NCBI GenBank assembly: GCA_900470445.1
Contig: UCAU01000003.1
Span: 1-64,000, forward strand
Direction: 5' to 3'
DNA: 64,000 bases
Source: Hyphomicrobiales bacterium
GTDB taxonomy: Bacteria > Pseudomonadota > Alphaproteobacteria > Rhizobiales > Devosiaceae
Below, in pieces: positions 10,545-40,193 of the stretch. Each line of letters opens with the position of its first letter. Within the stretch, counting starts at the first letter, position 1. Position numbers and translations under genes: made by a program. Under the pieces are notes generated by a model that was not told where the DNA came from, did not search any database, and saw only the letters and a program-made list of their open reading frames with translations.

Positions 10545-10676
10545 TGGAGGGCACTAGCGTGCGCCGAGATTCATGTCAGGCCGAGCCGAAAATGGTGCCT
10601 TTCGAGAACCGGAGCGGAGCGTACATGAGTACGTGAGCACCGGAAGCGCAGAAAGGCGCCATTTGCAGGCCGGCAT
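10545..10676 (-). repeat. GTAC-centred hairpin repeat, copy A
   Basis: An imperfect hairpin of about 100-130 bases downstream of ptsP. The loop region is GTACATGAGTAC, flanked by the conserved GAGAACCGGAGCGGAGC on the left and GAGCACCGGAAGCGC on the right. Outside this core, AAATGGTGCCTTTC pairs with GAAAGGCGCCATTT. The same core occurs at 34561 and 39458 with different but still paired arms. It starts about 20 bases after the ptsP stop when read on the minus strand. It may be a terminator or 3'-end stabiliser. Confidence 0.8.
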
Positions 10677-10695
10677 GGCGTGGAGATCGGGCGCG

Positions 10696-12963
10696 CTAGA
10701 CGGGCAGGTTCTGCTTGTCGATCCACTCTTGCAGCAATTGGCGGATCGTCACCCCATCGGCGCCCTCGCTCAGCGCCGCACCCACCGATTGCTGGATCGG
10801 CTTGAGATCGAGATTGAGCACCATTTCCTTGATCGGTCCGATCGAGGCCGGCCCCATGGAGAGCCGCGTCATGCCAATCGCCATCAGCGCCAGCGCCTCG
10901 AGCGGCTTGCCGGCCAGCTCGCCGCACATGGTGATGGGAATATTGTAGCGCTTGGCCGCTTCCACAACCATGCGGATGGCCCGCAGGCGCGGCAGCGCAA
11001 TCGGATCGTAATTCTTGGACACGCGCGGATTGGCCCGGTCCGACGCGGTCAGGAACTGCACCAGATCGTTGGAGCCGATGGAGACGAAATCGGCCTCGGG
11101 CAACAATTGATCGAGCTCGAACAGCAGCGATGGCACTTCCACCATGGCGCCCAGCTCCAGCCGTGACGGCGTCGGCTTGCCGGCGCGCCGCAGCCGCTCG
11201 ATTTCCTTTTGCACCACCATGCGGGTCTGCAGGAACTCGAACGTCTCGGTGACCATGGGCACCAATATCTTGAGCGGCCGCCCATTGGCCGCCATCAGCA
11301 GCGCGCGGATTTGCGTGCGCAACAGGCCCGGCCGATCCAGCCCCAGCCGGATCGAACGGTAGCCCATGGCCGGGTTTTCCTCCTGCGCCGAGCGCAGATA
11401 GGGCAGCACCTTGTCGCCGCCGATATCGAGCAGGCGGAACACCACGGGCCGATCCCCGGCAATGGCCATGGCCTCGGCATAAAGCTCCATCTGCTCGGGC
11501 AGGCGTGGCAGGCGCGAGGCGATCATGAATTGCAATTCGGTGCGGAACAGCCCCACGCCCGAAGCGCCGGTATCGTCCAGCATGGGCAGATCGGCCACCA
11601 GGCCCGAATTGTGCAGTAGCGTGATTTCCACGCCATCCTTGGTGATCGAGGGCTTGTCCTTGAGCGCGGCATAATGCGCCCGGCGCCGGGCTGAAACCCG
11701 CACCTTGTCGACATAGGCCTGCTCGATATCGGGCGTCGGCCGCAGATGCACGATGCCGGCCGTGCCATCGATGATGATCTCGTCGCCGGTCTCGCACATC
11801 GAGACGATCGACTGCGCCTGCCCGACAGCCACCAGCCCCAGCGACCGCGCGACGATAGCCACATGCGCCGTCGCGCCGCCCTCTTCGAGCACGACGCCGC
11901 GCAGCTTGGTACGGTCATATTCGAGCAGTTCGGCCGGCCCCATATTGCGGGCGACCAGAATCGCGTTTTCGGGCAATTCCTTGCGCCCCAGCGCATGGCC
12001 ATCCCCGGTCAGCACCCGCAACAGGCGATTGGCCAGGTCATCCAGATCGTGCAGGCGGTCGCGAATATAGGGATCGGTCTGGCGCAGCATGCGCGCACGC
12101 GTATCGTTCTGCACCCGCTCGACCGCGGCTTCCGCCGAAAGCCCGTTATCGATCGCCTCGGTCAGCCGGTGCACCCAGCCCCGGTCATTGGCGAACATGC
12201 GATAGGTTTCCAGAATCTCCCGGTGATCCGAGCTGGGCTGCATATCGCCATGGTCGAGCATGGCATCGATCGAGACGCGCATCTTTTCCAGCGCCGATTC
12301 GAGCCGCAGCTTTTCCTGCTCGGTATCCTCGGCGATGAAATTGGTCACGACGACACGCGGGTCGTGCAGAACCACGGTGCCCAGGGCAATGCCGTCGGTG
12401 AAGCTGACGCCGGTATACATGCGGGGACGCCTGAGATCGATATCGGAGCCCGGCTTGATCAGATTGTCGAAGTCGGAAGTGGCGATCATCTCGGCCAGGA
12501 TTGTGGCCGTAGTCAGCATCGCCTCGGTTTCATCCTCGCCATATTTGCGCCGCTCGACATTCTGCACGACGAGCACGCCCAGGGTCTGCCCGGCACGCAA
12601 AACCGGCACACCGAGGAAGGCGAAATAGCGGTCTTCCCCGGTTTCGGGGCGATAAGCAAAGGCGGGATGGGAGGGCGCATCGTCCAGCGACAGCGGCTCG
12701 GCTTCGGCCGCGATCAGCCCGACCAGCCCTTCGCCCAGCCGGAGCGTCGTCATATGGACGGATTCTTTGGCAAGGCCCTTGGTGGCGAACAGTTCCAGCG
12801 CGCCGTCATCGCGCAGCACATAGAACGAGCACACATCGGCGCGCATATTTTCGGCGATCAGCGAGACGATCTTGTCCAGCCGCTCCTGGCTTGCCAGGGG
12901 CTCCGCCATCGTCTCGCGCAATTGCCGCAGCAGCACCCTCGGGCCGCCTATGGACGTAACCAT
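10696..12963 (-). CDS. ptsP: PEP-protein phosphotransferase PtsP (EI-Ntr)
   Basis: A 755-residue first enzyme of the nitrogen phosphotransferase system. It autophosphorylates from phosphoenolpyruvate and passes the phosphate to NPr and on to EIIA-Ntr. An N-terminal GAF domain (about residues 20-160) is a likely nitrogen-state sensor. The swivelling domain carries the active-site histidine in GGATAHVAIVAR, and the C-terminal TIM barrel contains CGELAG and the conserved end. The length is normal. lysC-ptsP-prfA is a standard rhizobial order. Confidence 0.95.
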   Translation of the reverse strand: MVTSIGGPRVLLRQLRETMAEPLASQERLDKIVSLIAENMRADVCSFYVLRDDGALELFATKGLAKESVHMTTLRLGEGLVGLIAAEAEPLSLDDAPSHPAFAYRPETGEDRYFAFLGVPVLRAGQTLGVLVVQNVERRKYGEDETEAMLTTATILAEMIATSDFDNLIKPGSDIDLRRPRMYTGVSFTDGIALGTVVLHDPRVVVTNFIAEDTEQEKLRLESALEKMRVSIDAMLDHGDMQPSSDHREILETYRMFANDRGWVHRLTEAIDNGLSAEAAVERVQNDTRARMLRQTDPYIRDRLHDLDDLANRLLRVLTGDGHALGRKELPENAILVARNMGPAELLEYDRTKLRGVVLEEGGATAHVAIVARSLGLVAVGQAQSIVSMCETGDEIIIDGTAGIVHLRPTPDIEQAYVDKVRVSARRRAHYAALKDKPSITKDGVEITLLHNSGLVADLPMLDDTGASGVGLFRTELQFMIASRLPRLPEQMELYAEAMAIAGDRPVVFRLLDIGGDKVLPYLRSAQEENPAMGYRSIRLGLDRPGLLRTQIRALLMAANGRPLKILVPMVTETFEFLQTRMVVQKEIERLRRAGKPTPSRLELGAMVEVPSLLFELDQLLPEADFVSIGSNDLVQFLTASDRANPRVSKNYDPIALPRLRAIRMVVEAAKRYNIPITMCGELAGKPLEALALMAIGMTRLSMGPASIGPIKEMVLNLDLKPIQQSVGAALSEGADGVTIRQLLQEWIDKQNLPV

Positions 12964-34532: not shown

Positions 34533-34682
34533 TGGAGGGCACTGAGGTGCCGAGACGGCGGTCAGGCCGAGCCGAAAGGCGTAGCTTTCGAGAACCGGAG
34601 CGGAGCGTACATCGGTACGTGAGCACCGGAAGCGCAGAAAGCTGCGGCTTGCAGGCCGGCATCACCGCTGTATCGGCGCCTC
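34533..34682 (-). repeat. GTAC-centred hairpin repeat, copy B
   Basis: The core (GAGAACCGGAGCGGAGC, GTACATCGGTAC, GAGCACCGGAAGCGC) matches copies A and C except for two loop bases. The inner arm GTAGCTTTC pairs with GAAAGCTGC, a sequence different from the other copies. The outer arm CCGAGACGGCGGT pairs with the ACCGC and TCGG blocks that fall inside the last codons of the phytase-like gene. It lies between convergent genes. Confidence 0.8.
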
Positions 34683-39451: not shown

Positions 39452-39570
39452 GAGTTCGGTCAGGGAGAGTCGAAAATGGTGGTTTTCGAGAACCGGAGCG
39501 GAGCGTACATGAGTACGTGAGCACCGGAAGCGCAGAAAACTGCCATTTGCAGGCCACCATTACCGAACTC
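39452..39570 (-). repeat. GTAC-centred hairpin repeat, copy C
   Basis: Same core as copies A and B, with loop GTACATGAGTAC. The inner arm ATGGTGGTTTTC pairs with GAAAACTGCCAT through two G-U pairs. The outer arms are a perfect GAGTTCGGT/ACCGAACTC, beginning two bases after the J-protein stop on the minus strand. It lies between the J-domain gene and cobS. Confidence 0.8.
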
Positions 39571-39572
39571 AA

Positions 39573-40193
39573 CTATTTCGCGACGAAGCCCGCCTTCTTG
39601 AGATGCGAATAGGCCGCGATGATCGTGCGCAGCCGGTCCTCGGATGATTTGTCGCCGCCATTGGCATCGGGGTGGTGGATCTTGACCAGCGTCTTGTAGG
39701 CCCGCTTGATCTCGTCCGATTTGGCGTGGCCCATAATGCCCAGCGTTTCCAGCGCCCGCCGGTCCGGCTCATGCAGCGGCTTGACGCGTTCGGAGGCCGG
39801 CGTCTGCGCCTGCCGGTGCCGGTAGCGCGCAAACACGCCGAACGGATCGCCATATTTGTCTCCGGGCCGCAGGCCCGCCGTGCTGGCCGGCCGTGCGCCC
39901 GCCTGACCCGTCGCAAAACTCTTGCGGGTATCAGCCTTGGGCGGCGCATGCAGCGCCTCTTCCAGCTCGTCCTTCTCCATGCCGGCGAAGAAATTGAAGG
40001 CGGTATTGTAGTGGCGCACATGCTCGAGGCAGAAATGATGATACTGCCCCTCGCTGCGATGCCCCTTGGGTGCCTTGTGCGTACCGGGCCGGTCACAGCC
40101 TTCCCAGTCGCAGATCTGCTCCACCGGCGCAGGCTTCTCTTCCCGGCGCGGCCTGATGCGAATGTTATCGAACAGCTTGGATTGCAGTTTCAT
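39573..40193 (-). CDS. J domain-containing protein (DnaJ-like)
   Basis: A 206-residue co-chaperone with its J domain at the C terminus (about residues 130-200). IKRAYKTLVKIHHPDANGG contains the HPD tripeptide that stimulates DnaK. The N-terminal half has a cysteine-bearing CDWEGCDRPGTH segment and is typical of the alphaproteobacterial form found upstream of cobS. It may assist folding of the cobaltochelatase or simply share the neighbourhood. It is separated from cobS by repeat copy C. Confidence 0.88.
   Translation of the reverse strand: MKLQSKLFDNIRIRPRREEKPAPVEQICDWEGCDRPGTHKAPKGHRSEGQYHHFCLEHVRHYNTAFNFFAGMEKDELEEALHAPPKADTRKSFATGQAGARPASTAGLRPGDKYGDPFGVFARYRHRQAQTPASERVKPLHEPDRRALETLGIMGHAKSDEIKRAYKTLVKIHHPDANGGDKSSEDRLRTIIAAYSHLKKAGFVAK

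Follow-up and report, generated by a model that had tools for sequence, protein, structure and literature searches.

Bacterial interspersed palindromes tend to be classed as REPs or MITEs and taken no further. ERIC, an enterobacterial repeat, is an imperfect intergenic palindrome of about 127 bp with a conserved centre and a TA insertion site. Insertion sequences of the IS630 and IS5 types have TA or YTAR targets, and the IS200/IS605 and RAYT systems recognise hairpins in a strand-specific manner and insert without target duplication. In the Alphaproteobacteria, CGTC type REPs predominate and are described, in the part of the source available, as lacking a dedicated transposase (PMC3733652). 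The Bru-RS1 and Bru-RS2 repeats of Brucella are intergenic palindromes of 103–106 bp, for which the accessible sections give 35–40 copies from the literature (PMC10800456, PMC2267715) and a family table of 222 copies (PMC2267715). The available text on Br-REP1 and Br-REP2 of Bradyrhizobium describes transcribed 3'-UTR palindromic repeats, with about 200 and at least 50 sites, respectively, in one genome (PMC5082802).

The window, by which we mean the whole 64,000-nucleotide stretch analysed, contains three copies of a palindromic element (Table 1), each forming one hairpin on the + strand with its first base paired to its last. These copies share, on the + strand, a 46-base core that differs only in the apical loop (ATGA, ATCG and ATGA). 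The first 21 core bases, GAGAACCGGAGCGGAGCGTAC, matched the window exactly three times, whereas 100 dinucleotide shuffles gave a mean of 0.00 with up to three mismatches allowed, so the near-identical cores noted in the first-pass annotation were borne out. The three arm pairs quoted there were also found and are complementary, G-U pairs included. Copies 1, 2 and 3 folded better than 200 shuffles each (z of −8.1, −5.7 and −5.7), with energies on the + and − strands of −88.0 and −62.6, −87.5 and −68.3, and −54.7 and −43.4 kcal/mol, respectively. The bounds first proposed for copy 1 (10545–10676) stopped short of the right arm's terminus, which extends into the stop codon of ptsP: the A and G of this stop are the outermost bases of the element on the − strand. 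The genes flanking copy 1, named from a reading of their proteins, are both on the − strand. At copy 2, the gene that takes its stop from the element has the C-terminus ..LPEAPIQR, versus ..LEFGLPQ* in G318, a genome of the same species (read from DNA).

Table 1. Positions of the three elements, their cores and the adjoining stop codons in the window
Feature	Position	Strand	Basis or context
Copy 1, whole palindromic element, 142 nt	10556..10697	+	closed hairpin, between ptsP and prfA
Copy 1 core	10604..10649	+	exact pattern match
ptsP TAG stop codon	10696..10698	-	ORF 10696-12963 and element boundary
Copy 2 (L013), whole element, 139 nt	34544..34682	+	closed hairpin
Copy 2 core	34590..34635	+	exact pattern match
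TGA stop of 34662-35669 gene	34662..34664	-	from inside copy 2, in another frame
Copy 3, whole element, 119 nt	39452..39570	+	closed hairpin, downstream of DnaJ-like gene (named by eye)
Copy 3 core	39488..39533	+	exact pattern match
Native TAG stop, DnaJ-like gene	39573..39575	-	2 nt from the end of copy 3

No described family matched this element in the collections searched. At gathering score, Rfam gave no match in the window and none on a copy; the four matches obtained with 20 copy-bearing loci (tmRNA twice, 6S and tRNA) all lay off the copies, and low stringency yielded for copy 1 a single weak lncRNA match far below the gathering score. Beside one copy, at L401, an alphaproteobacterial tmRNA gene occupies positions 536–881. 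A topic search of the open-access literature (subscription journals fall mostly outside it) returned no description of the element, and six core strings searched in the text of 5.39 million open-access papers matched only four, all unrelated by title. By size and host class, and compared by description only, Bru-RS1 and Bru-RS2 are the nearest named candidates. Both they and the present element are alphaproteobacterial intergenic palindromes, and the latter has members in Ochrobactrum and in one record with the title Brucella grignonensis; a seat at stop codons is not mentioned for Bru-RS in the available parts of the sources. The consensus printed for Br-REP (about 20–40 nt, in the accessible part of the paper) has, by eye, no core in common with our element. 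ERIC is similar in being an intergenic imperfect palindrome with a conserved centre, but differs in its enterobacterial hosts and TA site.

CGTC- and GTAG-tagged REPs are likewise interspersed palindromes, and some of the post-stop sites of the present element hold, in close strains, palindromes that look (by eye) like CGTC REPs. However, REPs are 20–40 bp long with a terminal tag, whereas the present element, about 119–145 bp long, is conserved in its centre, varies at its ends and joins the gene at a stop codon; it ends RR..YY behind a T and has no constant tag. Strand specificity is shared with IS200/IS605 and RAYT, but no Y1 transposase (PF01797, E 0.001) was detected in 25 genomes of the genus, including the 24-copy genome of the window; elsewhere, this domain was found in five of the 41 relatives-set genomes, all of other genera, and in five of 14 control genomes. 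A RAYT origin was not supported, no Y1_Tnp match having been found in the genus and the element having no GTAG/CGTC foot-tag on a 20–40 bp hairpin, and the element also departs from a terminal-repeat MITE in lacking conserved terminal inverted repeats. It is REP- or MITE-like in being a short, non-autonomous, interspersed palindrome, but lacks these defining features of RAYT-associated REPs and terminal-repeat MITEs.

The three copies first reported are all those of the window, but a covariance model (R1) raised the count to 24 for the genome as a whole (4.8 Mb, 108 contigs), with one extra weak match on the opposite strand of a called copy. The element occurs in many Alphaproteobacteria. It was present in 22 of the 41 relatives-set genomes (own included), with 0 to 49 copies within the genus, and in 30 of 297 genomes and 11 of 122 genera of the order, where at most 14 candidates were scored per genome, so that copy counts are lower bounds. 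The class scan, of evenly drawn genomes with our own included, located it in 29 of 385 genomes and 27 of 277 genera; some of these genomes measure 1.3–2 Mb, and some copies lie in AT-richer surroundings (nine loci, 42–59% G+C). A pattern scan of named genomes gave at least 118 stretches with the element, and the hosts among the 80 titles listed include Mesorhizobium, Devosia, Phyllobacterium, Ochrobactrum, Agrobacterium, Bosea, Stappia, Sphingobium, Sphingopyxis, Novosphingobium and Asticcacaulis. The arms of a copy from Devosia sp. LC5 (L117) match one subfamily of the window's genome, so that the genus of the window is probably Devosia. Among plasmids, 34 of 72,556 records carry the element, 30 of them without an annotated gene under the match, and a blastn search of 50,697 phage records with one query (threshold 1e-5) found none.

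Some copies have unusual arrangements. Same-orientation neighbours stand 126–142 nt apart, in the manner of a tandem array, in G153 (contig C8, 39307/39449/39591), G122 (C4, 295224/295365) and G226 (C27, 17592/17718). By eye, the same LolA-like gene stands between two copies at L127 (Mesorhizobium hawassense) and at L187. A second palindrome, of the CCTACGCCGGCCGTAGCC type, is nested in the core or an arm at L090 (M. hawassense), L182 and L205, giving a mosaic. Extra blocks in one arm, with no visible partner opposite, were seen at L024, L031 and L033 of the window's genome (GGTCCGCGCCAGCGAA) and, with slight variants, at L089 and L092 (Mesorhizobium), L183 and L187 (GGAGTCGAAGACGGGC..).

The element is mobile between strains. 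Five copies of our genome were compared with G318, in which the flanks are 93–98% identical. Copies L015 and L031 are absent from G318, where an intact TAG stands at each insertion point and a duplication of up to 3 nt is possible; at the L018 site the element is absent and a stop lies just upstream; at the L016 site the stop is in the same place and is followed by another palindromic repeat; and a different palindromic repeat occupies the site of copy 2. Copy L025, also looked for in G318, was not at the expected place. The copy 1 site is filled in G318 and also in G202, another genome of the genus, where the element stands behind a ptsP whose protein ends ..LLQEWIEKQQLPV* (L212). With 26 of 30 ptsP loci readable by their C-terminus pattern, the core was seen behind ptsP in our own genome and in that of the same species, and G020 has a truncated element there (L250). 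For the DnaJ-like gene, three of 30 loci have the core (G000, G318 and G329), and the remaining 27 showed none within 257 nt downstream. Eight comparisons of filled and empty sites comprised two clean pairs from Agrobacterium vitis, one probable loss and four without a usable junction. The clean junction is that of one locus on A. vitis plasmids: between S4 and VAT03-9 or F2/5, ..ATCTGA/CCGTTTG.. becomes ..ATCTGA-(142 nt)-CCGTTTG.., with 0–1 nt duplicated. A third A. vitis comparison, with VAR03-1, has the same 142-nt gap and more diverged flanks. Sphingobium TomTYG72 was rejected as an empty site, since it looks more like a loss that left TAGGATGTG. The suggestion that structure was selected here rather than a mobile repeat retained was therefore wrong in its second half: presence and absence between strains and plasmids at definable junctions, together with the range in copy number, are those of a mobile element, and the structure is selected as well.

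Other palindromes were observed at the same post-stop sites, at L321 (G318, copy 2 site), L323 (G318, L016 site) and L233 (G329, ptsP), as if such positions were hot spots shared by CGTC-REP-like repeats (by eye) and the present ones. On two Sphingobium plasmids (TomTYG73, L384, and TomTYG64, L385), a different palindromic element stands behind the same stop, with an inner segment that looks to be inverted in one plasmid relative to the other.

The element is seated at gene ends, for the most part in one orientation. Our ORF caller placed 105 of 124 copies (the other 19 lie near a locus edge): 38 between convergent genes, 59 between tandem genes, eight between divergent genes and none inside a called gene, against 31, 176 and 100, respectively, for background gaps of at least 100 bp. 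Between tandem genes the element is antisense in 50 cases and sense in nine. The 24 copies of our own genome are divided into 11 convergent, nine antisense tandem, two sense tandem, one divergent and one at an edge, and in the 20 that are convergent or antisense tandem the opposite-strand gene ends 26–54 nt past the core on its 3' side. Over 190 copies, the nearest opposite-strand stop falls at 52–54 nt from the core in 83, at 40–44 nt in 25 and at 32 nt in 14, with none in 27; the largest stop peak on the other side of the element, an internal control, is 16 at 51–52 nt. Because the element has stops in three frames, entering ORFs end at fixed distances by construction, and this feeds the smaller peaks, which the 52–54 peak still exceeds. 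In all, 103 of the 190 copies have an opposite-strand stop 50–57 nt from the core and 87 have no qualifying stop there, so the copies are not scattered at random with respect to gene ends; random scatter would have counted against the first-pass reading. The stop was at 51–60 nt in nine of 19 distant copies whose core could be recognised and at 40–43 nt in six, with none found in the other four, and in annotated plasmids the opposite-strand CDS ends at the boundary of the element, 19–23 nt past the BLAST match, in five of the eight records opened and not in three.

Copies in a genome also tend to share a strand: 19 on − and three on + in G318 (contig C2), 11 on + and two on − in G009 (C1), seven on + and none on − in contig C41 of our own genome, and 20 on − and five on + among the 25 of 43 matches listed in G738 (C1), with G022 more mixed over its contigs (14 on +, seven on −). 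The C-rich strand carries the + strand of the element in 143 of 190 copies, a figure in which effects of replication and gene orientation are confounded. The stop-codon seat may partly reflect survivorship, since insertions elsewhere damage genes and an element-supplied stop makes loss harmful.

At 95 aligned junctions (eight of the 103 copies were too weakly paired), the third base of the stop is complementary to the first base of the far end in 82 cases and the second base pairs in 62, whereas the base opposite the first stop base is A in 35, G in 28, C in 19 and T in 13. The second and third bases of the stop therefore belong to the palindrome, whose far end mirrors the type of stop. These junctions bear on the best surviving alternative, an ordinary MITE carried by a DDE transposase of the IS630 or IS5 type, with terminal inverted repeats and a TA or YTAR target. 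Many ends do read CTAG..CTAG or TTAG..CTAA, and the L015 and L031 sites would allow a duplication of TA or TAG. However, such a MITE is unlikely, given that the centre of the element is its most conserved part and the ends, paired as they are, are the most variable, with arms differing between copies and clades. Furthermore, TGA stops mostly face TCA or TCG at the far end, with no direct repeat (three of 25 show TGA), the A. vitis junction has the minimal duplication given above, and our own genome has no orphan right half, all 23 right-half matches belonging to full copies.

Selection on a folded structure, proposed in the first-pass annotation, is supported by the alignments. In 23 copies of our genome, 94.4% of cells are standard pairs, against 89.4% in shuffled and 30–42% in slid controls, and 13 pairs have changed on both sides against 4.8 in controls. 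Covariation, the absence of which would have counted against the first-pass reading, was also strong in a wider set: 111 matches from 100 loci (of the at least 118 named-genome loci) are 95.5% paired, against 84.9% when shuffled and 31–38% when slid, with 303 double-changed cells against 70 in shuffles; since the model served to fit this alignment, more weight attaches to the controls than to the raw pairing figure. Among distant copies, in which one of 40 loci had no core match, the core helix CCGG/CCGG is replaced by ACGG/CCGT or CCGT/ACGG, and GCGTAC/GTACGT by GTGGAC/GTCCAT, GCGACC/GGTCGT or GCGGAC/GTCCGT, and most unpaired purines are unchanged despite these compensated helices. The purine loops read GAGAA in 150, AAGCGCA in 140, AGCGGAG or AGCGCAG in 171 and GAGCA in 183 of 190 copies, which were gathered with the core pattern or the model, so that conserved cores are favoured.

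Pairing is strand specific. Of 190 copies, 173 have the better fold on the + strand (means of −81.1 kcal/mol on + and −70.1 kcal/mol on −). At 14 inner-arm positions in the 187 of 190 copies passing a pairing filter, there are 269 G-T combinations (G-U on +) and 36 A-C (G-U on −), or 164 and 33 without one mostly T-G position, with other mismatches numbering 145 and 136; a cruder count of 271 to 149 includes an unpaired position with 110 C-A. The outer arms, with 22 of the 190 copies below the outer-palindrome score, have 247 G-U on + against 86 A-C and 575 other mismatches, and 67 non-redundant copies have 100 against 29, with 209 others (binomial 2e-10). These data show that the + strand, antisense to the abutting gene, is the strand favoured for folding.

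The abutting gene's mRNA is therefore not the molecule under pairing selection, and the favoured strand, being antisense to that gene, is not a conventional 3'-UTR structure of it. A vertically inherited 3'-UTR structure of this kind, a terminator or mRNA-stabilising hairpin, was implied by the first-pass annotation, and it would suit an element that stands at or directly behind stop codons and folds strongly on both strands. We nevertheless consider it quite improbable, because the mRNA strand is the weaker folder in the same 173 copies and has A-C where the opposite strand has G-U, and because the element is polymorphic within species and absent from most of the orthologous loci read. An intrinsic terminator was rejected: T-rich tracts follow the ends in one and four of 190 copies, against 10 of 950 random positions, so the hairpin is followed by no U-tract excess.

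The core is constrained after insertion. Thirteen orthologous copy pairs (own versus G318 or G329) have core changes at 5 of 563 sites (0.9%), apical loop changes at 8 of 57 (14%) and arm changes at 36 of 1277, compared with 501 of 4616 third codon positions (10.9%), 21 of 4615 second positions and 52 of 1596 other intergenic sites. The core thus evolves more slowly than the apical loop of the same elements (p = 3e-6) and other intergenic sequence (p = 0.002), and the arms are no slower than the latter (p 0.52). These are 13 of 16 pairs (L012/L212, L022/L311 and L021/L308 were left out), representing 12 own copies with L014 used twice; windows below 70% identity were skipped, which lowers the rates outside conserved sequence, and only copies identifiable in each of the two genomes could be compared, although the model goes as low as 48 bits in the matches that it reports. 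Had copies been converting one another, the apical loop would probably have been homogenised as well. Among 26 changed inner-arm pairs in the 16 comparisons, eight went from Watson-Crick to mismatch and four the reverse way, nine moved between Watson-Crick and G-U, and one was a double compensated change, so broken pairs and wobble changes were about equally common. In-place selection is therefore clear for the core only, and weak for arm pairing. Constraint on the core points to a bound factor or to altered folds being costly.

In quasipalindromes, template-switch correction can yield paired changes without selection, and the weak in-place evidence for arm pairing is in line with a neutral palindrome, its arms kept complementary by such correction with no selection on a folded strand. 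However, correction gives perfect pairs and not a one-strand excess of G-U (about 3:1 in the outer arms), and it leaves unexplained the conserved unpaired purine loops and a core that is slower than its own apical loop, so this reading is very unlikely. Least probable of all is an antisense regulatory RNA gene with its own promoter and a 3' end meeting the neighbour's stop codon, which the antisense favoured strand and the in-place constraint on the core might recommend, but which fits poorly with sequence that varies by copy outside the palindrome, with no shared upstream promoter by eye, and with losses, gains and other repeats at the same site.

We conclude that the repeat is probably of a new type, a non-autonomous mobile imperfect palindrome of about 120–145 bp that rebuilds the stop codon it enters and is constrained in its core afterwards. 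The element would enter a stop codon, or the bases beside it, without sizeable target duplication, and its terminal purine pair (AG, GA or AA) would rebuild the stop behind the T of the host. In the usual orientation, the strand with the purine loops (GAGAA, GGA, GAGCA and AAGCGCA) would lie antisense to the gene and fold into a long hairpin, the RNA or single-stranded DNA form on which structural selection would act. Both the missing clear target duplication and the strand asymmetry would be in keeping with a single-strand mechanism, and spread could depend on a hairpin-recognising enzyme supplied in trans; no transposase was seen between neighbouring copies, where the genes look host-like or ordinary by eye. 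A factor of the host or of the element may bind the purine-loop core and keep inserted copies intact. Function after insertion is the least certain step. Any host function is a tentative possibility, the likeliest being a 3'-boundary device that limits antisense transcription or nuclease entry at the gene end. It is rather unlikely that the full sequence of events holds, in which a parasitic, horizontally spreading hairpin splits the stop codon, rebuilds it from its purine end and is then maintained by the host as a 3'-end boundary through its antisense fold.

The proposal is directly testable, since it specifies an insertion point (the stop codon), an active strand (the antisense strand) and a core constrained in place. 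As the element occurs in the class genomes at the frequency reported above, the covariance model would annotate many genomes, and it could explain some 3'-end sequences and changed C-termini. Covariation is often read as the signature of a regulatory RNA, but the present family shows that a mobile element can have it too. If the proposed mechanism is true, selfish spread and site-by-site domestication would run together across a whole bacterial class.
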